NCBI RefSeq assembly: GCF_022819385.1
Contig: NZ_CP089290.1
Coordinates: 707,808-771,807 of the forward strand
Direction: 5' to 3'
Length of the DNA: 64,000 bases
Origin: Candidatus Nanosynbacter sp. HMT-352
GTDB taxonomy: Bacteria; Patescibacteriota; Saccharimonadia; Saccharimonadales; Saccharimonadaceae
Shown here: positions 28,073-54,794 of the stretch, one piece after another
Numbering within the stretch: the stretch's first letter is position 1
Layout: the number at the start of each line of letters is the position of its first letter
The notes under the pieces: generated by a model
What the model was told of the DNA's origin: nothing
What the model saw: the letters and a program-made list of their open reading frames with translations, nothing else
Databases searched by the model: none
Program-made: the position numbers and the translations under genes

Positions 28073-28597
28073 CTATTCGATCACCTCAACCACTTTGCCA
28101 TGTACGCCGTTATAACAAGCAGCGGCACGCGGCTTAGTAATAGCCGGCAGTTGGCGCGGAATAGCGCTCATATCGACATCGCCAAGCGTACCAGCCTCAA
28201 CAATGCCAAGCGTAATGTGTGGGCGAAATCCATCGATATCCAGCCCCGGATGAATATCATCCAGCATTTCAAGCAACTTCCGACGTACTTCAATCATCCA
28301 GGAGGTTTTCTGTACGCGCAGTTCAACCCAAACACAGTTACCAGCTTCATCTGGCAAGAAGTTGACACCGTCAAGTACCAGTTTGTCTAGAGACGGCAGC
28401 GCGGCGGCAGCTAACTTGAGACGCGGTATATCCTGCTCAGTTACATTAATCAGTGTCACGTGTGGGATAAACTCACCAAAGTCAAGGTTCATTGTTTCTG
28501 ACAACTCGCGAAGATACGCATTTTGCTCATCATCAAAGACGAGACTGACTGACGCCATATGTTTTTCGACTGGATATGCAGTATCTGCTGCGCGCAT
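28073..28597 (-). CDS. 2'-5' RNA ligase-like 2H phosphoesterase
   Basis: 174 aa with two H-x-T motifs, PHVTLIN and PHITLGI, about 80 residues apart, the catalytic pairs of the 2H superfamily (LigT, AKAP18-like). These act on 2',3'-cyclic phosphate RNA ends or related nucleotides; the true substrate is unknown. The ATG overlaps the recA stop as TAATG, so it is expressed with recA. Confidence 0.8.
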   Translation of the reverse strand: MRAADTAYPVEKHMASVSLVFDDEQNAYLRELSETMNLDFGEFIPHVTLINVTEQDIPRLKLAAAALPSLDKLVLDGVNFLPDEAGNCVWVELRVQKTSWMIEVRRKLLEMLDDIHPGLDIDGFRPHITLGIVEAGTLGDVDMSAIPRQLPAITKPRAAACYNGVHGKVVEVIE

Positions 28598-29652
28598 TAG
28601 TTTTCTACTTCTTTTACCTTATCACGTACCTTCTGGTCAATTTCTGCCAGGACTTCAGGATTTTCTTTCAAATAAGTCTTCGTTTTATCGCGCCCCTGAC
28701 CAATCGTTTCGCCGTTATATTTATAAAACGCACCCGACTTTTCAACTATACCGTGCGTTGCCGCCAAATCCAGGATATCGCCAGTTTTACTAATTCCCTC
28801 GTTGTACATAATATCAAATTCAGCCACACGGAACGGCGGCGCAATCTTATTTTTCACGACCTTAATTTTCGTGCGGTTACCAATAATATCATCGCCAACT
28901 TTAATCTGACCAATTCGACGAATATCAATTCGCTGCGACGCGTAAAATTTCAACGCATTACCGCCAGTTGTCGTTTCAGGATTACCAAACATCACGCCAA
29001 TTTTCATACGGATCTGATTGATAAAGATAACCGTAGCTTTTGATTTATTGATAATTCCTGTCAATTTACGTAGAGCCTGGCTCATCAATCGAGCCTGAAG
29101 ACCCATATGAGAATCACCCATATCGCCATCAATTTCAGCCTGTGGCGTCAAGGCAGCCACCGAGTCAACTATCACCAAATCCACCGCGTTAGAACGGACC
29201 AACGTCTCCGTAATTTCCAATGCTTGCTCGCCGTTATCTGGCTGAGAAACCAACAAATTTTCCGTGTCCACACCCAGACGCTTAGCGTATGCTGGATCAA
29301 GCGCGTGCTCGGCATCAATAAACGCTGCCGTTCCACCCTGCTTCTGAATTTCTGCAATAGCGTGAAGCGTCAATGTTGTCTTACCCGAGCTTTCTGGCCC
29401 ATAAATTTCTATGATACGACCTTTTGGATATCCGCCACCGAGCGCCAAATCCAAGCTCAAAGCACCAGAAGGAATTACTTCAACATCGACTTTATGAGCC
29501 TCGCCCAATTTCATAATTGATCCGTCACCAAATTGCTTGGTGATTTGATCCATCGCTAGACCAAGCGCCTTAAGTTTGCCTTCATCAACTTTTTTATCCG
29601 ATGCCTGACTTGACTTTTCTGGATTTACTGTTTTACTGTCTGATTTTGCCAT
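28597..29652 (-). CDS. recA: Recombinase A
   Basis: 351 aa. Walker A is [10 protein letters not shown] (residues 85-94), Walker [11 protein letters not shown], then loop L1/L2 segments and the C-terminal domain. It forms DNA filaments for homologous recombination. AAGGAGGGAG lies just upstream, with a TATAAT about 30 nt from the ATG, so it has a proper leader. No obvious LexA box was seen. recX is nearby but in a separate unit, and the prophage has its own Sak4-like ATPase and SSB. Confidence 0.97.
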
Positions 29653-31105: not shown

Positions 31106-32041
31106 CTAAACATTCACAATCTCGCCTCTTATACAAGCCGTCCCAGCATGCGCATTTGCCGCCAACTTATAATTCTTGATTTCGTCCCAAATCTCACACA
31201 TATCGCCGTCCAAATTATGTAAATACCGCTGCGTTACTTGTAGGCTCGAATGCCGCAATAATCTCCGCACTACATCGACGTCAGCACCACGCTTGCGCAC
31301 GTCAGTGGCGAAACTATGGCGCAGTTCGTGTAGCTGAAACCCCTCCAGCCCCGCCTCGCGAAATTGCCGCTGTATTTTCTTGCGGATACCGTCAACCGTT
31401 AGCGGCTCAAAGTAGTTGCGCCTTGTCGTCTTAATCCACATGTAGTCGATCACGCCAGCCGCCCTGATCCATGTGTCTAGCCGCTCGCGGGTCGTGTCAG
31501 AAATGTACACCCAGCCGTCCTTTCGTCCTTTGCCCACTGTATAGATCGTTCGTCCATTCAAGTCGTTCAGGCGTAAGTTCGCAAACTCCTGTGCGCGCAT
31601 CCCCGTATCAAACAGTACACGAATCATCACCTCAGTAAGCAAATCATCGCAACCACTCAGCACCATTGCAATCTGCTCCGATGTATACCATTTTCGGCGG
31701 CATGGTGCAGGCTTTGGCTTTACTACCATCCGGGTTTTGATTTTCATCGGATAGTTCATGTCTCGCAGCCAAGCTATCCACGATATCACCGTAGCAACAT
31801 TAGTGCGTATCGTTGTAGAATTACACCTCGAACCGAGCTGTCCCAATGCCTTTTTCTCAATCCATCGATCAAGCTTTTTATTAGTTAATTGCGACATATC
31901 TTCAATATTTGTCTGGGCAATAAATCTACTTAAGACACTACGTTTTGTTGCCATAGTTGAAGGGGTTAGTTGCTTCACATTCATACACCACTTCAAGTAA
32001 ACTCGCAACTGATTCTCTGCTGGCGTTCGCTTTATCTTCAT
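31106..32041 (-). CDS. int: Tyrosine recombinase, prophage integrase
   Basis: 311 aa. N-terminal SAM-like core-binding domain (about 10-95), then the catalytic domain with Arg149 (DTGMRAQEF), His238 and Arg241 (LHELRHSF), His264 (LLRHSSLQ) and nucleophile Tyr273 (TQRYLHN). It is XerD-like in size and lacks the N-terminal arm-binding domain of lambda Int, so it may act on simple core sites. Transcribed toward attL behind a palindrome-rich promoter. SD GGAG is 7 nt from the ATG. Confidence 0.94.
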   Translation of the reverse strand: MKIKRTPAENQLRVYLKWCMNVKQLTPSTMATKRSVLSRFIAQTNIEDMSQLTNKKLDRWIEKKALGQLGSRCNSTTIRTNVATVISWIAWLRDMNYPMKIKTRMVVKPKPAPCRRKWYTSEQIAMVLSGCDDLLTEVMIRVLFDTGMRAQEFANLRLNDLNGRTIYTVGKGRKDGWVYISDTTRERLDTWIRAAGVIDYMWIKTTRRNYFEPLTVDGIRKKIQRQFREAGLEGFQLHELRHSFATDVRKRGADVDVVRRLLRHSSLQVTQRYLHNLDGDMCEIWDEIKNYKLAANAHAGTACIRGEIVNV

Positions 32042-32070
32042 CGTAAAACTCCTAAATCTCCCACCTCGTG

Positions 32071-32158: not shown

Positions 32159-32348
32159 TACCCTCCATTTTTCAAGCCAAGCTAGCTTTTTAGGCAAAAT
32201 TATTCACCTAATTCGTGCCAGCTGATGTTATTTGCTTTACAAATAGTGTTATTGGTTATCTAATATCTAGCAGTAGACACGCAAAAATCACGCCGCTAGA
32301 TTTCTCCGGGCGCTACCCTCCATTTTTCAAGCCAAGCTAGCTTTTTAG
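32159..32348. repeat. 35-bp direct repeat pair
   Basis: The same 35 bp, starting TACCCTCCATTTTTCAAGCC, occurs at 32159-32193 and 32314-32348. Each contains AAGCTAGCTT. The right copy includes the stop codon of the 128-aa gene. The 120 bp between the copies holds no gene. It may be a remnant of a duplicated gene end, a deletion scar, or a paired protein-binding site; the sequence does not decide. Confidence 0.7.
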
Positions 32349-32723
32349 ACAAATACCCATATCGCCATACATCTGCGATATCTTCGCTCTACCGCTATAA
32401 TTCATATCTCGTCTGGCTCTTTCCTCCATTTTCCGTTGTTTCTTCTCTTGCCGCTGCCGCGCCAGTTCATTGATCGCTCTGGCAATTCGACCGCGCATCC
32501 ACAATAGCGACTTCTCCAGATTTTTTAGCGACCAAATTGACGCGAGGTACCTCTCAGGGTCGCGTTTAGTTTTTGCTACTTCAACTGATTCGTCGAACTC
32601 TTGTTTATATTTCTTTTGCCGATTACGAAACATTGGCAAATATGCGTCGTCTTTGATTAGTTCTGACGCTTTGCCGAGGTGTTTGCGCATCGTGGCGATT
32701 CGTTTATTGTCTACAACGAACAT
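32337..32723 (-). CDS. Small basic helical phage protein, unknown
   Basis: 128 aa, predicted to be mostly alpha-helical and very basic in the C-terminal half (RQRQEKKQRKMEERARRD), with a possible coiled coil. No motif recognised. GAGGG precedes the ATG. It lies between the late operon terminator and the integrase, so it could be expressed in lysogeny, and a nucleic-acid-binding role is possible from its charge alone. Confidence 0.55.
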   Translation of the reverse strand: MFVVDNKRIATMRKHLGKASELIKDDAYLPMFRNRQKKYKQEFDESVEVAKTKRDPERYLASIWSLKNLEKSLLWMRGRIARAINELARQRQEKKQRKMEERARRDMNYSGRAKISQMYGDMGICLKS

Positions 32724-33586: not shown

Positions 33587-34128
33587 AGACGCGCCTCGTA
33601 ATCATACACTTTAGTTCGCATAGCTTCATATTCAGGGCTATTGTTTAGCAGTTTATCTCCTAATGGCGCCTTACCAGTGCTAATCATATCGATAATTACA
33701 TAGATTTTGCCGTTGTATCCAACATCTGTTGGTTGCGGTAGCATAGTCTCGTCAGCTACCAGCATCTTGCCAATGCCGGATCCAGCTACTACATCGGTAT
33801 TACTTTTAACCGCCGAATAATCCACCACGTCGCCAACGGGCGCTTTCGTTGACAATAATATTCGGTAGGCTTGAGCAGTATTTGTGGTGATTCCGGCATT
33901 TGGATCGATGTAGTGGTCAAATAGTTCAAAGTTATCATTGACGATCTCCAGTTTGGTGTTTAATACTGCCAACTTGTGAGCTTCTACCGCCCACCATAAA
34001 TATCTAAAAGGTGCGCCGCCTTTATTGCCGGCGCTACCGCCCATACCAGGCGTGCCAGTTATATAAATATAATCATTGCCTTTTATTTGCCCAGTTCGAT
34101 AACCCTTCTCTTGCCTATCGCCAATCAT
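33583..34128 (-). CDS. Late phage protein of unknown function
   Basis: 181 aa. Glycine-rich start (TGTPGMGGSAGNKGGAPF), then mixed alpha/beta sequence with PVGDVVDYS and IYVIIDMIS. No family recognised. It overlaps both neighbours by 4 bp. Its ribosome site and ATGATTGG start match those of the next gene, which may reflect duplication of the junction or of the gene. Confidence 0.6.
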   Translation of the reverse strand: MIGDRQEKGYRTGQIKGNDYIYITGTPGMGGSAGNKGGAPFRYLWWAVEAHKLAVLNTKLEIVNDNFELFDHYIDPNAGITTNTAQAYRILLSTKAPVGDVVDYSAVKSNTDVVAGSGIGKMLVADETMLPQPTDVGYNGKIYVIIDMISTGKAPLGDKLLNNSPEYEAMRTKVYDYEARL

Positions 34129-34649
34129 ACCAATATCTCCGTTCCCAGTAGCAAATTTAATCGCTCCAACTTAAAGCTATGCGGCGGTGTGTCAAACGCT
34201 AACACCAACGCCATTAGCTCGCTCTCGCGCGTTCTCTCAGGAATGACTGGCTTCATATTAAGTCCAGCAATTCGAATCCTGCCGTTCTCTGCTTTTATTG
34301 AATCGCTCTTACCATACAGTCTACGCCACATCTCGTCAATCTGATCACTTAATAATGCTACTGGCGTTAAACCATCAACTGGCGCAAAAACCGCACGTAC
34401 ACCATTGTTACCAGCCACTACGCACCACAAATCCAAATAAGCCTCAACTATCTGCGCATAGTGAGGCATAAGCATGCGGATATACAGCACTGCCGACGAT
34501 TGATTGCCTAGTGATATATACTTGGCAACGTCGCCAGCTCGAGACCCTTCCGCCTTATCTTCTGCTCCGACAGACAGGTCGCGCTCAGTTGCATCGTAAT
34601 AGCAGTGTCCGACGATTGAACCGCGAACTGGCACGACCTGTCTCAGCAT
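34125..34649 (-). CDS. Late phage protein of unknown function
   Basis: 174 aa from ATG 34649, chosen for the strong GGAGGAATAAG just upstream; the longer frame back to 34727 runs through the neighbouring gene. Soluble, with a helical middle (HYAQIVEAYLDLWCVVAG) and a C-terminal RIAGLNMKP segment. Unknown function. It is the first of the three coupled genes that follow the lysis genes. Confidence 0.6.
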   Translation of the reverse strand: MLRQVVPVRGSIVGHCYYDATERDLSVGAEDKAEGSRAGDVAKYISLGNQSSAVLYIRMLMPHYAQIVEAYLDLWCVVAGNNGVRAVFAPVDGLTPVALLSDQIDEMWRRLYGKSDSIKAENGRIRIAGLNMKPVIPERTRESELMALVLAFDTPPHSFKLERLNLLLGTEILV

Positions 34650-34650
34650 C

Positions 34651-34833
34651 TTATTCCTCCGTCTTAAACAACTGTATAGCGGTAACCAGCAACACGTTAA
34701 TAATCGGGCCATAAATGCCGAACGCATCAGGGTTACCCTGCACGAACGCCGCTAGCGCGCCCAGCGCGTTTGAAACTCCCACATACAGCGCAACTTTTAA
34801 TATTTTGAGTAATTGTTCTTTAGTCAATTTCAT
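34651..34833 (-). CDS. Small membrane protein, candidate holin
   Basis: 60 aa with two hydrophobic helices (VALYVGVSNALGALAAFVQG and IYGPIINVLLVTAIQLF) joined by a short polar turn, and a charged N-terminus, in keeping with a class II holin. AGGAGG precedes the ATG, and it follows the endolysin gene by 16 bp. It may work with the two other small membrane proteins upstream. Confidence 0.6.
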   Translation of the reverse strand: MKLTKEQLLKILKVALYVGVSNALGALAAFVQGNPDAFGIYGPIINVLLVTAIQLFKTEE

Positions 34834-34849
34834 ATCATTGTCCTCCTTA

Positions 34850-36100
34850 TTATTTATTAAAATTTTTGAATAAATTGGTTAAAAATTCGATGATCTTATT
34901 GACGAGCACCTCCAGCGCCGAAACTCGCTTTTCTAGGCTATCGATTGGCTTATCGCTTAGATACAGCTTATCGATTGCTAGCGTACCGCCCTCTAACACC
35001 ATCAAGTCATCATCAACCAGTCTCGTAACATGAGTGACGCGAACCTTTGTTCCCATTGGTAATTTCTTTGCTAATTTTCCAGTAGTTAGGTCAGTAACCT
35101 CACACTCTGAACGCGTCCAGAAGTCTTGGTCGGCAATATCCTTCAGATTCTTTTGCCATGCCGGCTTATCTTTATTTGGATCAGCTGGCGCAACTAGCTC
35201 TGTCGCCGCGATGCCGAACGGCTTGCTATTCTTAACGGCGTACTGCGATAGGTAGTATTTCTTGCCCTGCACTATCGTCTCCTTGGCGATATCGATAACC
35301 GTCCCTCTAGGAATCACGTTACCAAACGCTTCCATGGTTACCATATTGACGGCACGTAGTCCTGCGACTGGTGCGACGACCAGTTTTATATCTTCAATAT
35401 CGTTCAGGTTACGCACCCACTCGCTTTGTTTCAATTCTTCCGCTTGGCGAGCCAGCTCTGCACGTCGTTGGTGCGCCTCCTGAGAGTTATTTACATCAGC
35501 ACGAATTTGGTCGATTGACCATCCCTTAGCAGCTTGCCCCAAGTAGTGTTGTAAACCCTCTGGGTCAACTTCACGCCCTAAAATTGAGCGGAACACTTCG
35601 CGAATCTGCGTCTCGTTGACTGTCGGACGCGAACCGCCGCCAGCGTGATAGCGATCAGCGATTGCACGGATACGGTTCTTGTCGATTGGTGAGCAACTAG
35701 TGTTGAACCATTCTTTATGCACGTAAATATTTAGGCGGCGGCCGTAAGCTTTCTCCATATCGTAGTGGAACTCGCCCATCGTCTCATAATCACCATCGCT
35801 AAGGCGTGTATTACATTCATAACCGACCGTTGTAGCGTTACCTCTAGCATTACCAGCGTGCCAAGCGGCGTTTACAGCATCTATAATCCATGCCACTCTG
35901 CCCGCCTCGCCGACAGTGTGCGCTGAGGTATTACCATTAGCGCGGCATAGATAATTCACTATCGACATAAAGTCTGAATTACTGCCCCACCAGTGATACG
36001 TTACACCCTCTACGACTCGTGCCATGCCATACACCGCTGATACTTGGCTTTCGGGCGTATAGTTCGGCGAGTTAAATTGTGTTAGTTCTTGGTATGACAT
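34850..36100 (-). CDS. Endolysin: N-acetylmuramoyl-L-alanine amidase
   Basis: 416 aa. Residues about 20-150 are an Amidase_2/PGRP-type domain: the zinc histidines are in TYHWWG, AWHAGN region and IYVHKEWFNTSCS. Residues about 155-210 contain a DUF4214-like or wall-binding segment (REVFRSILGREVDPEGLQHY). The rest has two SH3-like repeats (each with PxGTxVxV or similar) and ends in a coiled coil. It would cut host peptidoglycan at lysis. No signal peptide, so a holin is needed. Confidence 0.88.
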   Translation of the reverse strand: MSYQELTQFNSPNYTPESQVSAVYGMARVVEGVTYHWWGSNSDFMSIVNYLCRANGNTSAHTVGEAGRVAWIIDAVNAAWHAGNARGNATTVGYECNTRLSDGDYETMGEFHYDMEKAYGRRLNIYVHKEWFNTSCSPIDKNRIRAIADRYHAGGGSRPTVNETQIREVFRSILGREVDPEGLQHYLGQAAKGWSIDQIRADVNNSQEAHQRRAELARQAEELKQSEWVRNLNDIEDIKLVVAPVAGLRAVNMVTMEAFGNVIPRGTVIDIAKETIVQGKKYYLSQYAVKNSKPFGIAATELVAPADPNKDKPAWQKNLKDIADQDFWTRSECEVTDLTTGKLAKKLPMGTKVRVTHVTRLVDDDLMVLEGGTLAIDKLYLSDKPIDSLEKRVSALEVLVNKIIEFLTNLFKNFNK

Positions 36101-36103
36101 TTC

Positions 36104-36238
36104 CTACTCCTCCTTTAACACTTTCTTAATGAACCGATAAACAAATTTGAAAGTTGCCGCAAGCAGTAAACCAACTACTGCACCACTAAACGCGCCTGCA
36201 AATATCGCCATAAAAAATAACTGCTCCAACATACTCAT
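36104..36238 (-). CDS. Very small membrane protein, lysis cassette
   Basis: 44 aa. One long hydrophobic stretch (MAIFAGAFSGAVVGLLLAA), then a basic end (KFVYRFIKKVLKEE). Its ATG overlaps the previous stop as ATGA and its stop is just before the endolysin ATG, with AAAGGAGGAG inside its 3' end as the endolysin's ribosome site. It is likely a holin or holin-like partner. Confidence 0.65.
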   Translation of the reverse strand: MSMLEQLFFMAIFAGAFSGAVVGLLLAATFKFVYRFIKKVLKEE

Positions 36239-36525
36239 TTCGCTATCCTATCGATAATTACCATTTTCAGTATTGCTCCAGCCACGGCGGCGATGATGAA
36301 CCAAACTATCCTTGCTTGGTTGTCTTCCAGCTTATCCAACCTATCTTCATGATTTCCTACGTCTTTTTCCAGCTTCACTAGCCGCTCTACTACCACCGTC
36401 AGATCCAGTCTGTCAATCTTTGCGCTGATTGACTCTATCTGATTCCTGATGTTTTGTATATCGGCGTCCATCTTTCCTAATTTTTGCCATAGCTCCGCTT
36501 CGTTAGTATTATTTGCTGCTGCCAT
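36235..36525 (-). CDS. XhlA-like lysis accessory membrane protein
   Basis: 96 aa. A long heptad coiled coil (about residues 15-70, with KMDADIQNIRNQIESISAKI) followed by one C-terminal transmembrane helix (IVWFIIAAVAGAILKMVIID). This is the layout of haemolysin XhlA, which helps holin and endolysin in some phages. First gene of the lysis unit, downstream of its own promoter-hairpin module. Confidence 0.7.
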   Translation of the reverse strand: MAAANNTNEAELWQKLGKMDADIQNIRNQIESISAKIDRLDLTVVVERLVKLEKDVGNHEDRLDKLEDNQARIVWFIIAAVAGAILKMVIIDRIAK

Positions 36526-36569
36526 GCTTTGTCAGTCTCCTTTCTCTCACCCCAGGCCGCAACCAAATA

Positions 36570-36610
36570 AAAATATGCGTCCTGAAACGCATATACTTAC
36601 CTACATTATA
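36570..36610 (-). promoter_or_regulatory. Late promoter-hairpin module 7 (lysis genes)
   Basis: Minus strand: TGGTATAAT (-10 at 36605-36610), 11 nt including AGTATA, then TATGCGT/ACGCATA stem (36574-36593) with a 6-nt loop, then TTTTTATTT. The ribosome site and start of the XhlA-like gene come after it. Confidence 0.75.
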
Positions 36611-36643
36611 CCACGATTTTACCGTAAACATAATGCATTTTTC

Positions 36644-36660
36644 ATGGTTCTATACAACCA
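36644..36660 (+). repeat. Left inverted repeat of the tail-fibre switch
   Basis: ATGGTTCTATACAACCA. Its perfect reverse complement lies at 37399-37415. Inside, TGGTT and AACCA are inverted arms around an asymmetric CTATAC, as in a simple recombinase core. Confidence 0.9.
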
Positions 36661-37029
36661 CAACATATTGGCTGGAAAGATTTTATTCAATCGAAACAAG
36701 ACAATGCCACTCTGCCAGTTGTACCTGCTATCATCCAGTATGGTCGAGCAAGAGTAAGAGTGCCGACTGATACCGTAGAAGCTACGACATCAGTCACGTT
36801 TCCAAAGGAATTTGAGAACGGAATGATACCAACTATCATTTGCACGTACAACGGCTACGGCAACGCTAGCGACCCGTGGTCAGATACACCAAATCCGTCT
36901 TGGGCTGGGGCAACATTTGGAGCTGTTGGCGTTACTAATTCAGGGTTTACGGCACGTTGCCGGCGTTTTGACGGCGCTATGCTTAGAGGCGTGTATTACT
37001 TTAGTTGGGTTGCGATTGGTGCAGCTTAA
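36661..37029 (+). CDS. Silent alternative tail-fibre tip (tip B), no start codon
   Basis: 122 codons, open in the frame set by the left inverted repeat. It has no usable start of its own (a GTG at 36760 has no ribosome site), and the frame upstream closes at a TAA at 36631. The C-terminal part (SVTFPKEFENGMIPTIICTY ... GVYYFSWVAIGAA) resembles the beta-rich lectin-like or knob end of phage tail fibres, with the typical WVAIG ending. If the segment inverts, the repeat joins it in frame to the fibre start as GSIQP-QHIGW. Its stop touches the stop of tip A. Confidence 0.8.
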   Translation, partial: QHIGWKDFIQSKQDNATLPVVPAIIQYGRARVRVPTDTVEATTSVTFPKEFENGMIPTIICTYNGYGNASDPWSDTPNPSWAGATFGAVGVTNSGFTARCRRFDGAMLRGVYYFSWVAIGAA

Positions 37030-37398
37030 TTATTTAACATACTCCATAGTAACACTCACTTCCGAACTGCCCCAAGCATAACTGCCAGAAATAGTAATAT
37101 TCGTTTTATCAATGGAGGTAATACCAGCTTGGTGCGTCCCCTCAATATATGGCAGTGCCTGTTTTATGGGATTGTTTGACAATACGCCGGACAATCTCAT
37201 ATTGCCAGACCACGAAATCAGCTCCCAGGCGTTAGTCAAGCCGGTAATGCCATGAGGCAGGATTGAGGTGTTGTTCCCACCAATCATATTGACCGCACCA
37301 CGCGCAACCTTACGATAAATCGGTCGACCATCGATCCATTTTCTGCCAGTATCCATCTCAGTAGATTTATAGGCTTTAAGGCTATCTGCTAATTTATC
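36661..37398. other. Invertible segment with two tail-fibre tips
   Basis: 738 bp between the inverted repeats, exactly symmetric: tip B occupies 369 bp on the plus strand and tip A 369 bp on the minus strand, and the stops abut at 37029/37030. Promoter modules 6 and 7 lie outside, so inversion would change only the fibre tip. The design is like the Mu G segment. No serine invertase gene was found in the prophage. Confidence 0.82.
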
Positions 37399-37524
37399 TG
37401 GTTGTATAGAACCATCGCCTATCCCCGTTCCATCATGAAAACTAGCGTCATTTGCTGCCAAAAGATTCATTTTTGCCGCTGTTAAAATTTCGCCCGGCAC
37501 AAAATTTAAGTTAACATACGCCAT
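37030..37524 (-). CDS. Tail fibre / receptor-binding protein, expressed form with tip A
   Basis: 164 aa. The first 42 residues (ending GIGDGSIQP) are the constant part. Tip A follows, with KWIDGRPIYRKV, a motif frequent in minor tail proteins, and a beta-rich end (ITISGSYAWGSSEVSVTMEY). It is coupled to the upstream 179-aa gene with one base between stop and ATG. Role: adsorption to the host surface. Replacement by tip B through inversion would give another 164-aa protein. Confidence 0.8.
   Translation of the reverse strand: MAYVNLNFVPGEILTAAKMNLLAANDASFHDGTGIGDGSIQPDKLADSLKAYKSTEMDTGRKWIDGRPIYRKVARGAVNMIGGNNTSILPHGITGLTNAWELISWSGNMRLSGVLSNNPIKQALPYIEGTHQAGITSIDKTNITISGSYAWGSSEVSVTMEYVK
37399..37415 (-). 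repeat. Right inverted repeat of the tail-fibre switch
   Basis: Reverse complement of 36644-36660, located within the constant part of the fibre gene and coding for GSIQP in the same frame as the left copy. Identity stops exactly at both ends. Confidence 0.9.
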
Positions 37525-37525
37525 A

Positions 37526-38065
37526 CTATCTCACCCTTTCTATTTGAAATGTCTCAAATCGCTCAATAATCATACCTTTATCGCTATACTTCAGCTCGTA
37601 ATCTGCCTGCTCTTTATGGACACTTTGCTTTAGTGCCACTTCACTCTCTAGCTGCGCTCGCTCGAACGGGCTCATAGCAAATGAGTTCACCAGCTCTACT
37701 GGACTAGCCTCGCCTGGTTGCACTGGATTTATTGTTCCTCTCTCAAATTTAGATAACCGCGTGTCGTTGCCGGTTAATGCTTCATAACCAATCATCGGAA
37801 ATCCTTCAGGCGTTTTATCTAGCCTCTCACGGGTCGTCAGAAATAGCCCCTGATAATCATAAATATCACGGTTGCCCCCACGCCTAGGTGCGTTAATTGC
37901 TGAAAAGCCTTGAATTGTCTTTGCCGGAAAACACTCAACTGCGACTACCAGATTAGTTTTCAGACATCTCACAAAGTACACCTGGCTGTAATGTTGAGCA
38001 TAAAAATCTGCCATTTTCTCCAGTTCGGCTTGATCTTGCGTTTGCTTGGCTGTCTCGCTATCCAT
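37526..38065 (-). CDS. Tail-associated protein of unknown function
   Basis: 179 aa from ATG 38065, chosen because GGAGG sits 6 nt upstream; an in-frame TTG at 38077 overlaps that site. Soluble, with a helical N-terminus and a C-terminal coiled region (RAQLESEVALKQSVHKEQ). It lies between the tail hub and the fibre gene, so it may connect or chaperone the fibre. First gene after promoter module 6. Confidence 0.6.
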   Translation of the reverse strand: MDSETAKQTQDQAELEKMADFYAQHYSQVYFVRCLKTNLVVAVECFPAKTIQGFSAINAPRRGGNRDIYDYQGLFLTTRERLDKTPEGFPMIGYEALTGNDTRLSKFERGTINPVQPGEASPVELVNSFAMSPFERAQLESEVALKQSVHKEQADYELKYSDKGMIIERFETFQIERVR

Positions 38066-38079
38066 TATTTCCTCCAATA

Positions 38080-38127
38080 AAAATACGACCGCCGCTCTGG
38101 CTGGTCGTATATACTGCTTACATTATA
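38080..38127 (-). promoter_or_regulatory. Late promoter-hairpin module 6 (fibre genes)
   Basis: TGGTATAAT (-10 at 38122-38127), 12 nt with CAGTATA, stem TACGACC/GGTCGTA (38084-38109) closed further by GCC/GGC, then TTTTTATT and GGAGG. Confidence 0.75.
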
Positions 38128-38133
38128 CCACAT

Positions 38134-39735
38134 TTAGTTTGCTAGCACATCTCCGCCATCCAGTGTTGACTTGTCCAGCTCAAACGCACTAATTTTCGGA
38201 CGCTCCTCCACTTCCAGGCTCTGTCGAAAATTAGCATTCACGCCGCCTGCCAGCTCGTAGCTGGTAATAAAGCAGCTGAAACTATCAGCCAGCTCATCAA
38301 TCTGCAAGTCCACCGTATCGCCAATCTGTAAATACGGCACAAAAAAGTTATCCAACTTGAACTGTCTGTTTGGTTTTGAGTACAACGTTACGATGTTATT
38401 AGCGATCGCCCTCGCACCGCCAACATCCTGCACCAGGTTATTTTCAATCTTCAATACCTCTGCACCAAAACCGGTTGACGTGTCAGGATTGACTCCGTAC
38501 TGTTCAATGCTTGGCTCACTCACGGCATTTTCGGTAATTACTTGCGTTACCTTTGCCGGTACGCCCCATAACTGGATACGATTAACATATCCGTCCACAC
38601 TTGAGTTGTTACGGAAGGTCATTTTGTAAGTGCTGCCAAAGTTGTACACCGACACCAGCTGTACATTGATTGCGCCGCCTCCACCGTCAGAATTTTTCGT
38701 GCCAGAATACATCGACGTACCAGAGTTACTGCTTGCGTGAACTGGTCTATCTACACTTACAGCATAAAAGTCCCCAACACTATCCTGAAACTCAGCGAAA
38801 ATGTCGATAGTCTTACCAGCTCTTATTTTCGTCTGTTCACTACCCTGTTCCAGCTCCCACAACTTCTGAAATGCCTGTACTTTGAACGGCTTTGCTACCA
38901 CCTGCGCCGAGTTTATCACTGGCGTTGACTTAATCTGCAAGTTAGTCAAATTAGAATAACTGAATGTATGAGCTGTCGGCTGCGTCTTTGCCAGGTGTGT
39001 CCTATTCCAAAAGCGAATTATGCCCTGCTCGTCAACAAACACCAGCGCTGCTTCCGCCTCTGCTAGCTCTTTCAATAAATCAGTCACGCTCTTGTCTTTT
39101 GGCGATAAATAACCAATCGCCACCTGTTGCGACCGGTCGATCTCAAACTGGTTGGTACTGAGCCCCTGCTCAATCAGTAAATCTCGCACAATTTCGTGCG
39201 CAAACTTGCCCACAAACGCCGGCAAATTGGAATATTTTGTGTCCAGGTAGGTGATTGCGTCAAATGCCGTCAGCTCCACTGTCTGCTCTACAATATTTAT
39301 TGCCGGTGTACCCACGAACCCAACAAAGTTCGTAATCATTTCGCCATCATATCCAGTCAATATTTTTATCGGTCGCCCCGCCTTGATGAACTTTCCAATC
39401 ACGGGATCTTTTTCTGGCAGGAACCGCCCCGTCGTGTTATTCAGTGTGATTGTCGCCTGAGCTGTGACGACGCCCCATGAGTAACTACTCACTTTTTTAC
39501 TAATTTTGAAGTTCTTGACGTAACGACTCTCGTCCGTGTACGCATATTTGTCGAAAAACGTTACCACGTCGCCCGACCCTTTCAGAAAATCTCCGTCGTC
39601 CAGTGCTGAGGAATCCAAATTAAAGAACCGCGTAGTCGGATTTATTTGCTTACTCCACCCCAGCATAACCGCAAAATCAGTCTGCTTGCGCGGTGCGTCA
39701 ACCTTGCTGATGAAATTAGACGAAACCGCCTGCAT
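38134..39735 (-). CDS. Tail hub / baseplate protein
   Basis: 533 aa, beta-rich. It begins like phage tail hub proteins (VSSNFISKVDAPRKQTDFAV ... WGVVTAQATITLNNTTGRF) and contains the segment LVFVDEQGIIRFWNR seen in gp27/gpD-like hub folds. A short motif occurs twice, near the N-terminus as LDSSALDDGDFLKG and at the very end as LDKSTLDGGDVLAN, an internal duplication of unknown meaning. SD GGAGG is close to the ATG. It probably forms the tail tip with the preceding 113-aa protein. Confidence 0.7.
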   Translation of the reverse strand: MQAVSSNFISKVDAPRKQTDFAVMLGWSKQINPTTRFFNLDSSALDDGDFLKGSGDVVTFFDKYAYTDESRYVKNFKISKKVSSYSWGVVTAQATITLNNTTGRFLPEKDPVIGKFIKAGRPIKILTGYDGEMITNFVGFVGTPAINIVEQTVELTAFDAITYLDTKYSNLPAFVGKFAHEIVRDLLIEQGLSTNQFEIDRSQQVAIGYLSPKDKSVTDLLKELAEAEAALVFVDEQGIIRFWNRTHLAKTQPTAHTFSYSNLTNLQIKSTPVINSAQVVAKPFKVQAFQKLWELEQGSEQTKIRAGKTIDIFAEFQDSVGDFYAVSVDRPVHASSNSGTSMYSGTKNSDGGGGAINVQLVSVYNFGSTYKMTFRNNSSVDGYVNRIQLWGVPAKVTQVITENAVSEPSIEQYGVNPDTSTGFGAEVLKIENNLVQDVGGARAIANNIVTLYSKPNRQFKLDNFFVPYLQIGDTVDLQIDELADSFSCFITSYELAGGVNANFRQSLEVEERPKISAFELDKSTLDGGDVLAN

Positions 39736-40077
39736 TTACACCTCCCGAATTGTTACGGTTAGGCTCGTCATCAAGCTGCCGCCGCGAATATACTCGTCGG
39801 TGTCACAGTCTGTCATAATCCCGTCAAACTGAAGCACGCCGTATTTTGATTGGTCGTTATAAAACCTCACCGTGCCAGCGGCATTAAAGATATCCTCAAA
39901 GAATCGAAATTGTACTGGCGTTACCGCTGTAAATGTCATTTTGGCACGCTTTTTGGATGGAAAGCTATGCCTTTCAATACTGCCATTAATTGAGAGATTG
40001 TCAGTCTTTACCACCACCGGCGAATCGTCGTAGCCGCTTGGATATACTGGTATTTCTTGTCCGTTTAATCGTATCAT
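39736..40077 (-). CDS. Distal tail protein-like
   Basis: 113 aa, beta-rich, with MIRLNGQEIPVYPSGY at the start. The size and the place between tape measure and hub fit a small distal tail (Dit-like) or tail completion protein. ATGA overlap with the tape measure gene. Confidence 0.6.
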   Translation of the reverse strand: MIRLNGQEIPVYPSGYDDSPVVVKTDNLSINGSIERHSFPSKKRAKMTFTAVTPVQFRFFEDIFNAAGTVRFYNDQSKYGVLQFDGIMTDCDTDEYIRGGSLMTSLTVTIREV

Positions 40078-42248
40078 CGGAGTGCTCCTAGTTGATCAAG
40101 TCGCAATCCTTGTGCTTTTAGTGCTCGATTGATTTGCTTTGCGATATTCACTGCATCCTCCTCGTTAAATTTCTCATCTCTAGTAGTAACATTTACGGTA
40201 ATGTTGACATCTCGTGCACCAACTCCGTCGCTGCGCTTGTTAATTTGCGTCACCAGGCTTGCCATCTTACTTTCTGGAACGACCCATTCGTTCTGCCCGC
40301 CGTCACCAGCATAAATAATCGAACCGCCGCCCTGCGGAGTAACGATGCCACCGGTCGCCATTCGCGGAATATGTAAGCTTGGAATATTACCAATATGTAC
40401 GCCTGGAATCTTGTTGATAATTCCAATCGCACCGTTAATCATGCCAATGAACCCGTTTGCCATCTTCTCGACCATGCTTAGTGCACCATTAACTGCACCT
40501 CTGACCGCACCGCCAATAGCGTTGCCAACGAAGCTACCCAGTCTTCCGAACATTCCAGTGATAGTGTTCCACACGCCGCCGAAGAATCCTGCTAGCCCGC
40601 TAAATATGCCAGTTATAGCGTTCCATGCTCCACGGAAAATACCACCAAACCAGCCTGCCACGCCAGCGAATACACCGACGATGCCATTCCACACGCCGCC
40701 GAACCAGCCAATAACTGTATTCCACACGCTCACGATAATATTCCATGCGCCACTGAACACACCGCCAAAGAACTGTACTATTGGCGTAAATACTGCCACG
40801 ATAAAATTCCAAACTGCCTGAAATACGGCAAATATCTGATCCTTGAACATGAAAAATAATCCAATGACAAGAGATATCGGTGCGAAGATTACCGCTAAAA
40901 TAGAAAGCCCCCATTCTTGCACGAACGACACTATGCTATTGAATACGCCAACTATCCCATTCCAAATATCACCAAAAAACCCAAGCACGCCGCCAACAAA
41001 GTCACTTACAACTTGTCCGATAGCGTTAAAGATACCGCCAAACCAACTAGCAGCAGCACTCCAAGCGGATTTTATAGCCTCCCACGCTTTGCCGAATATA
41101 TTGAACTTTACCTGTAAAAACACCAATGCTCCAACCACCGCTGCTATAGCAGCAACAATCAAAAGCATCGGATTTTTACCAGTTACTAAATTAAATGCTT
41201 CCATGGCCGTTTTCCCGCCACGAATAGCATTCGCAAATTGAATCATACTAGCAGCGAACGATCCCACTTTCATAGCCACTAGGGCAACGCCAGCAGCGGT
41301 TACTGCTGGTACGAAATTATTTATTACTATATCCGCAATCTTCTGAATCTTATCCTTATTCTTTTCCAGCCAATTTGTCGCATCCTCAACGGCTTTGCTG
41401 ATTTTGTCGAACACACCGCCAGCTTTGACTTGTCCAGTCTCTGCATCCACGCCAACAATTTTCATGCCTACGTTGGTAATTGTTTCCAGCAAGTTGCTCA
41501 TGCGTCCGTTGAATGTTTGGGATTGCTTAATCGCACCCTGAAAAGCCATACCACCCTCATCACTCGCCATCTGGAGTGCCTTACGTAGTACATCAGCCGT
41601 AACTTTGCCCTTCGATAGGTCGTCGCCGAACGTCTGAATGGAATGACCCGCCCCCATCGCTGCAATGATATATTTTTTGAATCCACCAGCACCTTGGTTG
41701 ATGATCTGATACCAGTCTTGTGTCATCATCTTGCCATTACCGATTGCCTGCGTAATTGGCAGTGCCAAGCCCTGTAAATCTGCACCAGTTGCACCCGCCA
41801 AGTCGCCCAAATTTCTCATCCAGCCCATCAAATCCTGAACCGCCACGCCGTTTGCTAGGAACATTTTGGCAGTCGCCTGGATGGATTTATTGTCAAAGGC
41901 TGTTTCTTTGCCGTATTGATACAGTGTTTTCATGACGACATTCGTCGCCTCTACTGTTCCAGTTAGCGATTCAAAAGACGATCGCAGTGACTGCAATTCA
42001 GATGCGCTTTTTACGAACGACATCAACCCAAAACTACCACCCACCGCCACCGCAGCGACGCGCTTCAGCGTCGATTCAATGAATCCGCCCGCTTGACTAA
42101 AGGCGTCCTTCAAATTAGCAGCGTTGCCGACTAGTTTATTACCTACATTGCTGCTAAAACTTTTAACGCTCGCCTGAGCAGTCTTTAAGGCAGCCTGCAA
42201 GGCTGATACGTTTGCTCGAATTGTCAGAGTGAGTGTGCTGTTATTCAT
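40074..42248 (-). CDS. Tail tape measure protein
   Basis: 724 aa. The N-terminus is helical and carries the TP901-type core (SFESLTGTVEATNVVMKTL ... AKMFLANGVAVQDLMGWM), the middle has transmembrane helices, and residues about 400-600 contain a run of hydrophobic repeats of the W-N-x-I/V-x-G-x-F type (GVWNGIVGVFAG, GAWNAITGIFSG, GVWNTITGMFGR). The length would suit a tail of roughly 100 nm at the usual 1.5 Å per residue. It is separated from its chaperone genes by the plus-strand moron, so it needs its own promoter, module 5. Confidence 0.9.
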   Translation of the reverse strand: MNNSTLTLTIRANVSALQAALKTAQASVKSFSSNVGNKLVGNAANLKDAFSQAGGFIESTLKRVAAVAVGGSFGLMSFVKSASELQSLRSSFESLTGTVEATNVVMKTLYQYGKETAFDNKSIQATAKMFLANGVAVQDLMGWMRNLGDLAGATGADLQGLALPITQAIGNGKMMTQDWYQIINQGAGGFKKYIIAAMGAGHSIQTFGDDLSKGKVTADVLRKALQMASDEGGMAFQGAIKQSQTFNGRMSNLLETITNVGMKIVGVDAETGQVKAGGVFDKISKAVEDATNWLEKNKDKIQKIADIVINNFVPAVTAAGVALVAMKVGSFAASMIQFANAIRGGKTAMEAFNLVTGKNPMLLIVAAIAAVVGALVFLQVKFNIFGKAWEAIKSAWSAAASWFGGIFNAIGQVVSDFVGGVLGFFGDIWNGIVGVFNSIVSFVQEWGLSILAVIFAPISLVIGLFFMFKDQIFAVFQAVWNFIVAVFTPIVQFFGGVFSGAWNIIVSVWNTVIGWFGGVWNGIVGVFAGVAGWFGGIFRGAWNAITGIFSGLAGFFGGVWNTITGMFGRLGSFVGNAIGGAVRGAVNGALSMVEKMANGFIGMINGAIGIINKIPGVHIGNIPSLHIPRMATGGIVTPQGGGSIIYAGDGGQNEWVVPESKMASLVTQINKRSDGVGARDVNITVNVTTRDEKFNEEDAVNIAKQINRALKAQGLRLDQLGALR

Positions 42249-42376: not shown

Positions 42377-42874
42377 ATGTTTAGTCTATTTAAGAAAGAT
42401 AAAACACCAAAACCAATTACAATTATCGGGAAATACGAAGGGTCTCATCCAGAGCTTCCAGACTCAGTACTAAACGCTAGTCTCAGGTGTGATGAACACG
42501 GAGTGGACTTGTCCTTCAATAAAGGACAATGGGCTCTCGCTAGACACTTTGACTGGTCAGAGATCGAAGGCTTTGATTTCGATTTTGGCAACGAACGGCG
42601 CGTTAGCGGTAAAGAGACTTCAGCCGCCAGGGTTGTTGCTTTTGGTCTTGCTGGGGCGACCGTAAAGAAGAAAAAGTACGACAGTGGCTTTTATGTGCAG
42701 AATGTCTTATATACAAAAAGCGGTAACGTAGAGCTTATCCTTGAAAAACACTATACGAACACAGGTGATATGGCTACAACTGCGACAAACCTTGAAAGCA
42801 TGTCTCACACTTCAAAATCAACTAAGTTTAAGAAATATGTTCTTTCTAAATTAAACCTGGAGTCCTCCAAATGA
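42377..42874 (+). CDS. Moron gene 1: PH-like domain protein, unknown
   Basis: 165 aa, cytoplasmic. The middle (HFDWSEIEGFDFDFG) and the strand pattern after it resemble small bacterial PH/SHOCT-associated domains that start with a W-x-E-I strand. The run TVKKKKYDSGFYVQNVLY may be a surface loop. It is on the opposite strand to all tail genes and has its own promoter. Role unknown; superinfection exclusion or host modification would be typical for morons. Confidence 0.65.
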   Translation: MFSLFKKDKTPKPITIIGKYEGSHPELPDSVLNASLRCDEHGVDLSFNKGQWALARHFDWSEIEGFDFDFGNERRVSGKETSAARVVAFGLAGATVKKKKYDSGFYVQNVLYTKSGNVELILEKHYTNTGDMATTATNLESMSHTSKSTKFKKYVLSKLNLESSK

Positions 42875-43839
42875 ATCTATCTCTCCGTCGCAAAAAATCT
42901 GCTGAATCTAATAAAATTGACAAAGCTAAACCATCTATCAAAAGCTTCAAGCAAATCTACCAAGAAAATAAGAATAGACCGCTTACCAAAAACGAAAAGC
43001 GAGGCTGGGCTATTTTGGGCGGTATCATCATAGCTATTCTCGTCATTGCTCATGTCAGCAATGTGATGGAGCAGTCTCGCCTCGAAAAGGACAATGTTCC
43101 AATCGTTATCTCTGACATAGAGGACAATATCAAGCTTGATTACTACACCGACAGGCTTGAGCTATCCGCCAAAATATCGGGTGTTAGCTCATTTGCCGAG
43201 GTAAAAGTCTCAGGCGACAAAACCGACATCCACGACCGCAAAAACGCAGCTGGTAATATCAAATACGAAGTTAAAAATATTAAAGAGGGAGACAGCGATA
43301 TCTCTATATCTATTGCTGACGGCAAACGCCACAGTGATAAAACGATTAAGCTTCACCGCCAAACAAAAGCCGACTACGACAAACAAGAGCTCGAAAAAGC
43401 TCTCAAGTATACCGAGGAGCTAGTAAAAAAGGCTGAGGAACAACCCACCAACGAAAACATCTCTCGTGCCAAATCAGACATCAATAGACTACCAGAAGAC
43501 AAGCGCGCTCCATTCTCTGAACGTATCGCCAAACTAGAAAAAGCCAAGCAGGAAGAAAAAGAACGTGCTGACAAAGCCAAGAAAGAGGCCGAGGAAAAGA
43601 AAAAGCAAGAGGAAGCCGCCGCTGCTAGCGCTCGCCAACAACAGCAGTCGCGCTCACAACCAGTAGCTACACCTCGCCAGACTGCGCCCTCACCACAGCC
43701 TGCTCCATCGGGCCCGAACTTTAGCAGCTGCAAAGAGGCACGCGCCGCTGGCTATAGTCATATGCGTCGAGGTGAACCTGGGTACGCATCACACCTTGAT
43801 AGAGACGGTGACGGCATCGCCTGTGACAAGCACAGATAA
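42871..43839 (+). CDS. Moron gene 2: membrane-anchored surface protein with excalibur domain
   Basis: 322 aa. A basic cytoplasmic arm, one transmembrane helix (GWAILGGIIIAILVIAHVS, about residues 45-65), an outer beta domain, a highly charged coiled coil (about 190-255), a Q/P/S-rich linker, and a C-terminal excalibur calcium-binding domain whose key motif is DRDGDGIACD. Excalibur domains occur on secreted or cell-surface bacterial proteins. Overlaps the first moron gene by 4 bp. Probably displayed by the lysogen on its surface (inference). Confidence 0.78.
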   Translation: MNLSLRRKKSAESNKIDKAKPSIKSFKQIYQENKNRPLTKNEKRGWAILGGIIIAILVIAHVSNVMEQSRLEKDNVPIVISDIEDNIKLDYYTDRLELSAKISGVSSFAEVKVSGDKTDIHDRKNAAGNIKYEVKNIKEGDSDISISIADGKRHSDKTIKLHRQTKADYDKQELEKALKYTEELVKKAEEQPTNENISRAKSDINRLPEDKRAPFSERIAKLEKAKQEEKERADKAKKEAEEKKKQEEAAAASARQQQQSRSQPVATPRQTAPSPQPAPSGPNFSSCKEARAAGYSHMRRGEPGYASHLDRDGDGIACDKHR

Positions 43840-49825: not shown

Positions 49826-52633
49826 CTATTTGTTTTTATGCTGCTTTTTCAACTGTTCGTCTAGGTATTCAGAATCCATCTGCCAAATAGCATGCATCCG
49901 TTGAACTGCTCGGCTCGGTTTGTAATTTGGATCGGCGAGACGCTTCTCAACTTCCTCGGCCGTCTTATTCAAACTAGCCATCATTTCATCAGTCAGCAAG
50001 TCCTCTGATTCATCAGCGAGGTATTTAGTGTCCTTCGTCATTTCCATATCAGCCATGATAATCTCATTATCTAACTTCTTAAGCCTTTTTACAACGAACT
50101 TCTTGCCCCTAGACAGCAGATATTCGTCCTCATCTGTTATTGAGGTAACACCATTATCTGCTAGCACTTTCTCCATATCCAAATACGGCATATCCTTTGG
50201 AGCCTTAAAGATAAATACATATTTGTTCCCGTCAGCTTGCCGTGCAAACTCTATTGACACGTCCTGACTGGTAGATGTAGAAAGAAAATTAGGATTATCG
50301 ACAATATCATTAACCGACAACTTTGACTCTAGCCCAATACCACGATACAGCACCACGTCCTTCTCTAGCTTCGTCTTCTTAATCGCCTTATCCAGTTGCT
50401 TAATATCAGCCTCAGCATACTCATTCATTGGTCGGCGACCCAATAGCGTCTGATTGATATTTATAAACCCATTGCCCTTATATGTCTCGATACTCAGTAA
50501 CTCTGCCTTGGTGTACTGTGCCATGTATGGATTCTCTTCAATCAGCTGCGGCTTCGGCGTTCTCTGAATCTTCTCAATGTTGTGCATCTGCATGTTGTTC
50601 GGCGGGTTTATCTCATCCTCTGGATTATCGCCGAGAAGTCTCGTAAACGTCGAGCGGCAGTTAAAATGTCGCGGCGGAATATACTCAGGATATGCCTGCC
50701 ACTCCTTCCATGTCATCACCCTGCCGTCCAGTGCGCTACAGCCAGGCGACGTTCGTGCATCCAGAATTGCCGAAAACTCCAATACATCGTCATCGTCCCA
50801 TACCGAATTACGCCCGGAATTGATCGCTTGTGCGATTGCGTACGACGCCGTATCCGTCAACTTCGTCGCAAACCATGCCAGAATCAGCTTCAGAATCTCA
50901 GCGTCGTAATCAATCGGCTCATCATCCAGCACTACTCTGTTCATTACCAGGCTTTTAGCGTAATTGGTTAGGTCATCCTGCTGTTTCTCGATAATCCAGT
51001 TTATGTATTCAACGGCTGCTTTAGTTAAATCATTGCCGTTCTTCGCAGCCGGCTTACCCATTTCATCGCTAGCACTGATTTTTCCAATCTGATACCCCTG
51101 CTTAAAGAATGATACCAACGTTCGGCGGTACTCCACCGGAAACACCACCGCATCAATGTCGCTCACCAGCTTTGATTTTGCGACCTCCTGGCTGACCTCC
51201 TCCGCCACAGTCTTATAAACTGGGCGGATTTGGTCTAAAAAACGTTTTTCTAGCTCCTGCCACCTGGCGTCAAGCTTCTTCAGGCTCTCGCTCGGTTCAT
51301 GATTGTGATTATCGCTCATCGTTCGTTGACCGGTCGGCGTGCCACCAGTCTGTTTCTCCTTGCTGGCGTTGCTTTCAGTATTTTCAGCCTGCTCAGTACG
51401 CTGCTGCTTAATCTTCTCCACGTCAAAGCCTAGCCGTGTCGCTGTTGCGTCTTCAATCTCGCTCGCCATTGCGTCAGACATGCGGTCTTTCTGAATCATT
51501 GTCGTAAAGGCGTTGAATATCGCACCAACCACTTCATTATCCAGCTTCTCGAATGCGAAAACCGGATAGCGTGGTTCGCTAAAGTTAATATCAATCAAAT
51601 CAGCGATGATGTATTGGTTAATGTGAGCCGCCAGCTTATTCATGACGGATTCTAGGCTCATACGGAACATCTTTGCTTGCGTATCGCTCAGCGCAAAGCT
51701 ACCAGTCGAACTTGTCCCCTGCGAACCCAGCAGCATAAAGTTAGCCAGGAATACTCTTGCCATCTCAGAGTTCTGGCGCTCAATCGATTGGTGCGGATCG
51801 CGTCCCTCAGAGTTCAGTACCTCAAGTTCGTAATTTGGCGGCAAAGTCGCCGTTGAATTGACCTTGCCTAAACGGCTTAATACGTTCAATACTTTCGACG
51901 TTACTTTGTCATCAACATTTGCAAGTGTGCTGCCGGTATTTTTCAGTACCTTTGGCTTGATAGCGTCATTTTGCAAAGCAATGCTATCTAGGTATTCCAA
52001 CTTCCACTTCTTGTCATAGTTTCGCCAAAGTGCCGTAAATATTGAACGTCCATAATACTGATCGTATCGTTTGCCTGGTGTAAATAGGAACGTTTTGTAA
52101 GCTGGAATAACCACCGTCGAACCGTCTTCTTGCGTTTGCTTAATCCCTTGATAGCCGTCCTTCAAATCGCTTAGAATCTCTACACTCCTCGAATCCCGCA
52201 GCGCCAGCTTCTTCAACTCGTAGCGGTTATTATTTAGTCGATACACCTTCTCCCACACTTGAAAGCCGTCAACCAATGCCATCATTGATTGATCAAGGAA
52301 TAGATTAAACGGTGTTTCAATACCGCCTTTATAACTCTCGCTCAGTAAGTTGTTTCGTACGAAATCTGCTTGCGTTTTCGCTTCAGTGCTTTCGTCGGCA
52401 GGCTTAATGTCATATTCGCTTGCCAAAATCGGCATGGTCAGGATATTGAATAATGCCTCGACAGTGCCATCACGCAGCATATCTCGGTAATCAGTGATTT
52501 TCCTCGGGCGGTTTAGCTTTATTTTCTCTGCTTCATAGTCCGTAAATACGCCAGTGCCAGCACTACCAATCTCACGTAGTCGGCGTCCTGCCTTTTTATC
52601 GTTATTCTTACCGCTCAAGTTTACCAGCTTCAT
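49826..52633 (-). CDS. Portal-MuF-ADP-ribosyltransferase fusion protein
   Basis: 935 aa. Residues about 1-450 are a DUF935-type (Mu gp29-like) portal with LMALVDGFQVWEKVYR and RYDQYYGRSIFTALWRNYDK. Residues about 530-670 are a MuF head morphogenesis domain ending PRHFNCRSTFTRLLGD. Residues about 715-860 are an ADP-ribosyltransferase of the VIP2/exoenzyme class: catalytic Arg764 (VVLYRGIG), the S-T-S at 785-787 (FLSTSTS), and Glu835-x-Glu837 (DEDEYLLSRG). All three R-S-E motifs are intact. It would be part of the virion, so the enzyme could enter the host with DNA (inference). Confidence 0.88.
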   Translation of the reverse strand: MKLVNLSGKNNDKKAGRRLREIGSAGTGVFTDYEAEKIKLNRPRKITDYRDMLRDGTVEALFNILTMPILASEYDIKPADESTEAKTQADFVRNNLLSESYKGGIETPFNLFLDQSMMALVDGFQVWEKVYRLNNNRYELKKLALRDSRSVEILSDLKDGYQGIKQTQEDGSTVVIPAYKTFLFTPGKRYDQYYGRSIFTALWRNYDKKWKLEYLDSIALQNDAIKPKVLKNTGSTLANVDDKVTSKVLNVLSRLGKVNSTATLPPNYELEVLNSEGRDPHQSIERQNSEMARVFLANFMLLGSQGTSSTGSFALSDTQAKMFRMSLESVMNKLAAHINQYIIADLIDINFSEPRYPVFAFEKLDNEVVGAIFNAFTTMIQKDRMSDAMASEIEDATATRLGFDVEKIKQQRTEQAENTESNASKEKQTGGTPTGQRTMSDNHNHEPSESLKKLDARWQELEKRFLDQIRPVYKTVAEEVSQEVAKSKLVSDIDAVVFPVEYRRTLVSFFKQGYQIGKISASDEMGKPAAKNGNDLTKAAVEYINWIIEKQQDDLTNYAKSLVMNRVVLDDEPIDYDAEILKLILAWFATKLTDTASYAIAQAINSGRNSVWDDDDVLEFSAILDARTSPGCSALDGRVMTWKEWQAYPEYIPPRHFNCRSTFTRLLGDNPEDEINPPNNMQMHNIEKIQRTPKPQLIEENPYMAQYTKAELLSIETYKGNGFININQTLLGRRPMNEYAEADIKQLDKAIKKTKLEKDVVLYRGIGLESKLSVNDIVDNPNFLSTSTSQDVSIEFARQADGNKYVFIFKAPKDMPYLDMEKVLADNGVTSITDEDEYLLSRGKKFVVKRLKKLDNEIIMADMEMTKDTKYLADESEDLLTDEMMASLNKTAEEVEKRLADPNYKPSRAVQRMHAIWQMDSEYLDEQLKKQHKNK

Positions 52634-54237: not shown

Positions 54238-54781
54238 CAATATTACCCTCCTCCTTCGCTTTTTTCAGTTTTAAGTCGCGCTCATCTCGCCAACCACAAA
54301 CATTCTTCATAGTAAAGATAGCAAAGCTCGCCGACGCGGCGCCGCTCAAGCCAATGTCCACAAGGAACTCTCGCTGCAAATCCTTGGCGGTATCGTAGGC
54401 CTCGGCAAATTCTGGATGTTCAGCACACCAGTTTTTCAGTGTATTGCGGTGAACGCCGATTTTACGCGCAAAGCCTTCAAAACACGGAAAACGCTGTGGC
54501 AGACGCCTCGAGATTCGCTTGCTGCCGTCAGGATCCTTTATCTCAGTGTCCTGAACAATATCTAACGGCTCAATTGAGAAATAGTCAATGAGCTGCTGGC
54601 AATATTCTGGTTTGTATTTCGTTGGCTGACCTGGCTCTGGTTGCTCAAGCTGTTTTGGCGGCTCAACAGGTGGTGTTTTCGGCACGTCCTTAACAATCCC
54701 GCGCAGCTGCTGCTTCGAGTTTTTGCGATTAGCCTGCTTGCTGCTTCGCCTGTTCCTGCGCATCATTTTTCTGGTTGCCAT
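54203..54781 (-). CDS. terS: Terminase small subunit
   Basis: 192 aa from ATG 54781 (SD GGAG). A basic N-terminal arm (MMRRNRRSSKQANRKNSKQQ), a proline-rich linker, then a helix-turn-helix region (FARKIGVHRNTLKNWCAEHP) and a helical oligomerisation part (AKDLQREFLVDIGLSGAAS). It recognises the packaging site. The longer frame upstream runs into module 1. Confidence 0.82.
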   Translation of the reverse strand: MATRKMMRRNRRSSKQANRKNSKQQLRGIVKDVPKTPPVEPPKQLEQPEPGQPTKYKPEYCQQLIDYFSIEPLDIVQDTEIKDPDGSKRISRRLPQRFPCFEGFARKIGVHRNTLKNWCAEHPEFAEAYDTAKDLQREFLVDIGLSGAASASFAIFTMKNVCGWRDERDLKLKKAKEEGNIDDEELRAAIFE

Positions 54782-54794
54782 GATATTTTCTCCA

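Follow-up and report, generated by a model that had tools for sequence, protein, structure and literature searches.

Tail-fibre tip exchange by DNA inversion is known from the phages Mu and P1, in which serine invertases are used. In the Mu G and P1 C segments, an invariable N-terminal region is followed by either of two alternative C-terminal regions; the segments of both phages also contain tip-specific assembly genes. Switches of this type have 26-bp crossover sites and a Fis-bound enhancer, and the serine invertases of Mu G, P1 C and the e14 P segment are Gin, Cin and PinE, respectively. Tyrosine-recombinase phase-variation switches use short inverted sites, and the sites of these enzymes consist of short inverted arms around an asymmetric spacer of 6-8 bp. 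The serine invertases are described as flipping segments of 1.8-4.2 kb (PMC12529663), with inverted repeats at the fibre genes and a flip that alters adsorption in Mu and P1 (PMC12529663, PMC8987985), and a tyrosine recombinase is credited with inversions in Bacteroides and Mycoplasma penetrans (PMC8042965). Here, we describe an element at positions 36644-37415 of a 64,000-nucleotide stretch of Candidatus Nanosynbacter sp. HMT-352 (NZ_CP089290.1; hereafter, the window). It is located in the tail-fibre gene of a prophage and appears to be an intact site-specific DNA inversion switch, a reading to which we assign a probability of roughly 0.87.

Anatomy of the segment and nature of its tips

The whole segment has 772 bp and is delimited by a perfect 17-bp inverted repeat that encloses 738 bp (Table 1). 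The fibre gene (37030-37524, minus strand) codes for 164 residues, and its first 42 codons, the constant head, finish within the right repeat arm. The interior is made up of two halves of 369 bp, tip A on the minus strand, which is expressed, and tip B on the plus strand, open and startless, with their TAA codons back to back (37027-37032). GSIQP is encoded by both arms, each in the frame of its own tip, and reversing the segment in silico gives a 164-residue protein again, now composed of the head and tip B. The original prediction, made from the DNA letters, had described the arms with their coordinates, the 738-bp interior, the two 122-codon halves, the in-frame GSIQP at both arms and the abutting stops, and had claimed that inversion would keep a 164-residue fibre; all of this was reproduced. 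The equal length of the tips, on which it also remarked, is true here and seems to be incidental, since tip lengths vary among relatives.

According to the mechanism that we propose, a recombinase would exchange strands at the pair of 17-bp repeats and so flip the segment within one lineage, and the constant 42-residue head would then be translated into tip A (the present state) or tip B. The fibre would keep its 164 residues in both states, and the unused tip would be silent on the opposite strand, devoid of a start codon. The tips would be different receptor-binding domains, so that a flip should change the surface structure recognized by the phage and, possibly, its choice of host. As the original prediction proposed, the phage would vary its receptor binding, presumably on a host of the candidate phyla radiation.

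A chance origin of the repeat was discarded. When the window was resampled 60 times under an order-2 Markov model, 17-mers that have an inverted copy at ≤3 kb had a mean of 0.033 per sequence and a maximum of 1, compared with three overlapping 17-mers, equivalent to two repeats, in the window itself. The fibre-gene repeat thus exceeds chance, yet it is not unique, because there is an 18-bp perfect inverted repeat (CCAATTGATCGCGCATAA) in the host part of the window (8076-8093 and 10167-10184, 2.1 kb apart, within two protein genes) that is also beyond chance in the resamples. The meaning of the segment as a switch comes from its anatomy and its relatives and not from the repeat alone. By tblastn, no further copy of the head or of either tip was found in the window (best other E value, 0.39). 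A shufflon-like array within it was discarded. A copy of the 17-mer with three mismatches (GTGGTTTTATTCAACCA) was found at 57780-57796, near no tip.

Tip B matched the tail-fibre tip family Gp53-like_C (PF21882) with 28.2 bits, above the curated Pfam cutoff of 24.9. Its match to H_lectin (PF09458) had 20.1 bits, below the cutoff of 24, and the fold of the tip B model is similar to that of the H-type lectins. Taken together, model and family match indicate that tip B is a gp53-like, H-lectin-fold receptor-binding domain. Tip A is only weakly fibre-like. Searches of PDB sequences with alignments of the tips gave no match for tip B and a single meaningless one (E value, 0.91) for tip A. The codon use of tip B, compared with that of seven phage genes, scored 0.095 in its own frame versus -0.080 to 0.025 in the other frames or antisense, and tip A scored 0.043, all of them small differences that come without a null distribution.

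Head-tip fusions among relatives

Protein databases were searched with the fibre (259 proteins, of which 120 were listed), with tip B (30) and with only the first 46 residues of the fibre (59). These counts refer to clusters at 90% identity, and not to frequencies of orientation; P0121, for example, represents 294 members. At least 40 of the 42 head residues were common to 39 of the 59 proteins recovered with the head, and behind these near-identical heads there were 31 versions of tip A (49-96% identity to that of the window), three of tip B and five other tips. The three tip B fusions were P0121 (head, 42/42 residues; tip, 96% identity), P0122 (40/42; 91%) and P0154 (≥40/42; 50%). Since P0121 carries all 42 head residues and tip B, a protein nearly identical to the predicted inversion product is present in the database, and it also has 164 residues. 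The fusion expected from the opposite orientation, which the original prediction proposed to look for among relatives, is found at the protein level in P0121 and P0122; the A and B fusions of the same head come from separate database entries. They diverge directly after GSIQP, where the repeat ends. In P0151, the departure from tip A takes place only ca. 20 residues later, so the junction is not universal for every tip.

In 18 proteins (within P0151-P0169), other tips followed this fibre head or one resembling it, which suggests, at the level of protein sequence, a broad tip exchange at or near the head-tip junction.

A second head (DILTAAEQNQ ... DDIVLPR) was also found with both tips, tip A in P0031 and tip B in P0124. 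Its junction, IVLPR, is unlike GSIQP. The same residues precede the tip in P0037 and P0040 (tip A) and P0123 (tip B), which differ further upstream. This fits the expected gene-finder product of a silent copy read from the outside DNA through a repeat into the tip, although some could be frame-shifted heads. Four proteins of 108 residues start inside tip A, and among the 176 proteins listed there were at least 28 head-less proteins starting with MP (10 with tip A and 18 with tip B); judging by the proteins, both sets look like silent cassettes. A third type of junction, D(F/L)TTMP, is only suggestive: among the proteins listed, P0137 alone joins it to tip B, and its upstream residues, compared by eye, correspond to none of the heads seen. 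Given the length limits of the searches and the 120 of 259 fibre matches listed, there may be further proteins starting with MP or carrying D(F/L)TTMP. It is tempting, if rather doubtful, to envisage a phage lineage of tiny epibiotic bacteria in which one Xer-like tyrosine recombinase both integrates the phage and flips the tips, and which maintains this A/B pair downstream of three or more heads that differ in their crossover sequence (GSIQP, IVLPR or ID(F/L)TTMP).

At the DNA level, we scanned viral contigs with the fibre, tip B, alignments of tip A, tip B and the head, the terminase, the 17-mer and the integrase; four of these queries retrieved nothing, three retrieved only distant loci, and the 17-mer gave two single matches in unrelated genes (L017 and L018). 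The scan of genome contigs added only three distant loci (Clostridia, Treponema and Bacilli). Against phages and plasmids, neither blastn with 36000-38200 nor tblastn with the fibre gave a match, and neither did tblastn with tip B against phages. Terminase relatives had only ca. 28% identity among the best 20 of 1042 phage records listed. Perfect inverted repeats (≥14 bp, ≤2.5 kb apart, within 3 kb of the match) were present at 3 of the 16 loci (L001-L015 and L019), and at none of the 16 did they surround the matched tip; those of L011 were repetitive sequence away from fibre genes and were discarded.

Recombinase, rival explanations and prophage surroundings

A total of 40 phage-part proteins were scanned against Pfam, including the tip B reading and nine genes at 34125-42248. 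No serine recombinase or resolvase family was detected among them (small frames, the host part and any phage genes beyond 64000 were outside the scan), and the only recombinase was the product of 31106-32041. This protein matched PF00589 with 89.1 bits and integrase PHROG 1, and its matches to XerA, XerC and XerD extended over most of its length, below all cutoffs; XerA and XerD are also among its PDB relatives. The gene is 4.6 kb from the segment. We consider it the likeliest enzyme, and there would be an even chance that this Xer-like tyrosine recombinase is the invertase as well as the integrase. Both repeats read TGGTT-CTATAC-AACCA, a layout that would suit a tyrosine recombinase core, although the 5-bp arms are short and make a weak criterion for such a site.

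If the switch is real, the chance is nearly even that the segment inverts by means of an enzyme encoded elsewhere, either a host Xer protein or invertase or a phage gene beyond the scan, with the phage enzyme dedicated to integration. In favour of this, the segment has no invertase next to it, the vicinity of the integrase contains no copy of the 17-mer at a tolerance of three mismatches, and phage-type genes reach at least 63271 with no right phage end in view. What speaks for the phage's own enzyme is that the sole recombinase of the 40 scanned proteins is a tyrosine recombinase, Xer-related over most of its length, in a scan that did not extend to the host part.

Much less credible is a scenario without active inversion, in which tip B was gained by module exchange and the tip B fibres of relatives derive from homologous or illegitimate recombination. 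Two observations do speak for it: close relatives join the head to five other tips, indicating that tips do get exchanged, and the A and B fusions are known only from separate database entries. Yet there has to be a reason why tip B stays intact although it is startless, lies on the opposite strand in frame via a perfect repeat and directly borders tip A, and module exchange has to account for two heads each with both tips, common junction residues and head-less copies. As for tip B being a remnant in decay or a frame left open by chance, the lack of a start codon in the present orientation would agree, but this is extremely improbable for an intact reading that is 96% identical to the tip of P0121, which has 164 residues and shares the head, is fused to that head also in P0122, passes the cutoff of a tail-fibre family, as the search proposed in the original prediction revealed, and leans to phage genes in its codon use.

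Table 1. Position of the segment, its parts and neighbouring genes in the window
Feature	Coordinates	Strand	Remarks
RecA, among host-type genes left of the phage	28597-29652		
Xer-like tyrosine recombinase	31106-32041	-	PF00589, 311 aa; candidate invertase, probably also the phage integrase
Amidase endolysin	34850-36100	-	Downstream of the putative switch
Small coiled-coil protein, probably lysis module	36235-36525	-	Weak XhlA/haemolysin-type matches
Left inverted repeat, ATGGTTCTATACAACCA	36644-36660	+	5-bp arms TGGTT/AACCA flank CTATAC; GSIQP read into tip B
Silent tip B	36661-37029	+	122 codons and TAA, startless; Gp53-like_C family, model with H-lectin-like fold
Expressed tip A	37030-37398	-	122 codons and TAA
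Right inverted repeat, identical 17 bp	37399-37415	-	Encodes the GSIQP that ends the constant head
Constant fibre head	37399-37524	-	42 residues; ATG at 37524
183-aa gene directly upstream of the fibre gene	37526-38077	-	No Pfam or PHROG match
Tail protein	38134-39735	-	PHROG 1887; YQBQ-like
Tape measure	40074-42248	-	
Terminase	52705-54823	-	

The identified structural and lysis genes of the phage are on the minus strand, in the order terminase, portal, Mu-like major head protein, tail tube, tape measure, tail protein, fibre, XhlA-like protein, amidase and integrase. An exact 35-bp direct repeat (32159-32193 and 32314-32348) lies upstream of the integrase gene, and its second copy overlaps the 3' end of an open reading frame (32337-32723); it is possibly a trace of an attachment site or of a duplication. 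The sequence GTCTATATAGA(T/C)CG is found in two copies, at 32070 and 32111, upstream of the integrase start, where they might act as operator or recombinase-binding sites. Two small plus-strand genes (42377-43839), the second of which ends in an Excalibur domain, interrupt the minus-strand phage genes between the tape measure and the tail-tube region and could be a moron. Other features are a 935-aa frame (49826-52633) combining Mu-like portal, Mu F-like and ADP-ribosyltransferase-like (PF03496) domains, and a 328-aa protein (58063-59049) with a subthreshold match to KwaB of the Kiwa defence system (21.2 bits; cutoff, 26.3).

Comparison with known switches

Phages of Saccharibacteria, Gracilibacteria and Absconditabacteria have been surveyed, with 147 prophages counted, in a paper whose main text contains no word beginning with "invert" (PMC10746230). 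We found no description of a fibre switch in phages of Saccharibacteria or of the candidate phyla radiation in the titles and abstract openings of a literature from which subscription papers were mostly absent. What is new here is the compact design, the occurrence in nature of one head fused to either tip, the second head with both tips and the likely tyrosine-type enzyme. If a phage whose host may be an epibiotic ultrasmall bacterium has a compact fibre switch with no recognized serine invertase, this would point to variable surfaces being encountered by phages of this kind. It would also provide a starting point for learning what these phages bind, and one could test whether a tyrosine recombinase of the integrase type also operates a fibre switch.

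With Gp53-like_C and H-type lectin tips (AP22 gp53, R-pyocin fibres and discoidin), tip B shares the Gp53-like_C family match and, in its model, the fold; it differs from H-type lectins in an H_lectin score under the cutoff. As regards a diversity-generating retroelement, no reverse transcriptase family was detected in the 40 scanned proteins and no tip copies elsewhere in the window. The likeness to Mu G and P1 C drawn in the original prediction holds for the proposed mechanism, in which a fibre gene contains inverted repeats that flank two C-terminal tips, either of which can be read in frame. It does not extend to size (0.77 kb versus the 1.8-4.2 kb given for Mu G, P1 C and e14 P in PMC12529663), to gene content (the two tips fill the 738 bp, with no assembly genes) or to the enzyme, given that no serine invertase was found where scanned and the candidate is a nonadjacent tyrosine recombinase. 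For these reasons, we do not file the segment in the Gin/Cin group. Its two sites have 17 bp in common. With the tyrosine-recombinase switches of Bacteroides and Mycoplasma penetrans, it shares a tyrosine recombinase in the same element, here a candidate enzyme only. However, those switches flip bacterial promoters or surface genes, whereas in this prophage the coding tips of a phage fibre would be swapped.
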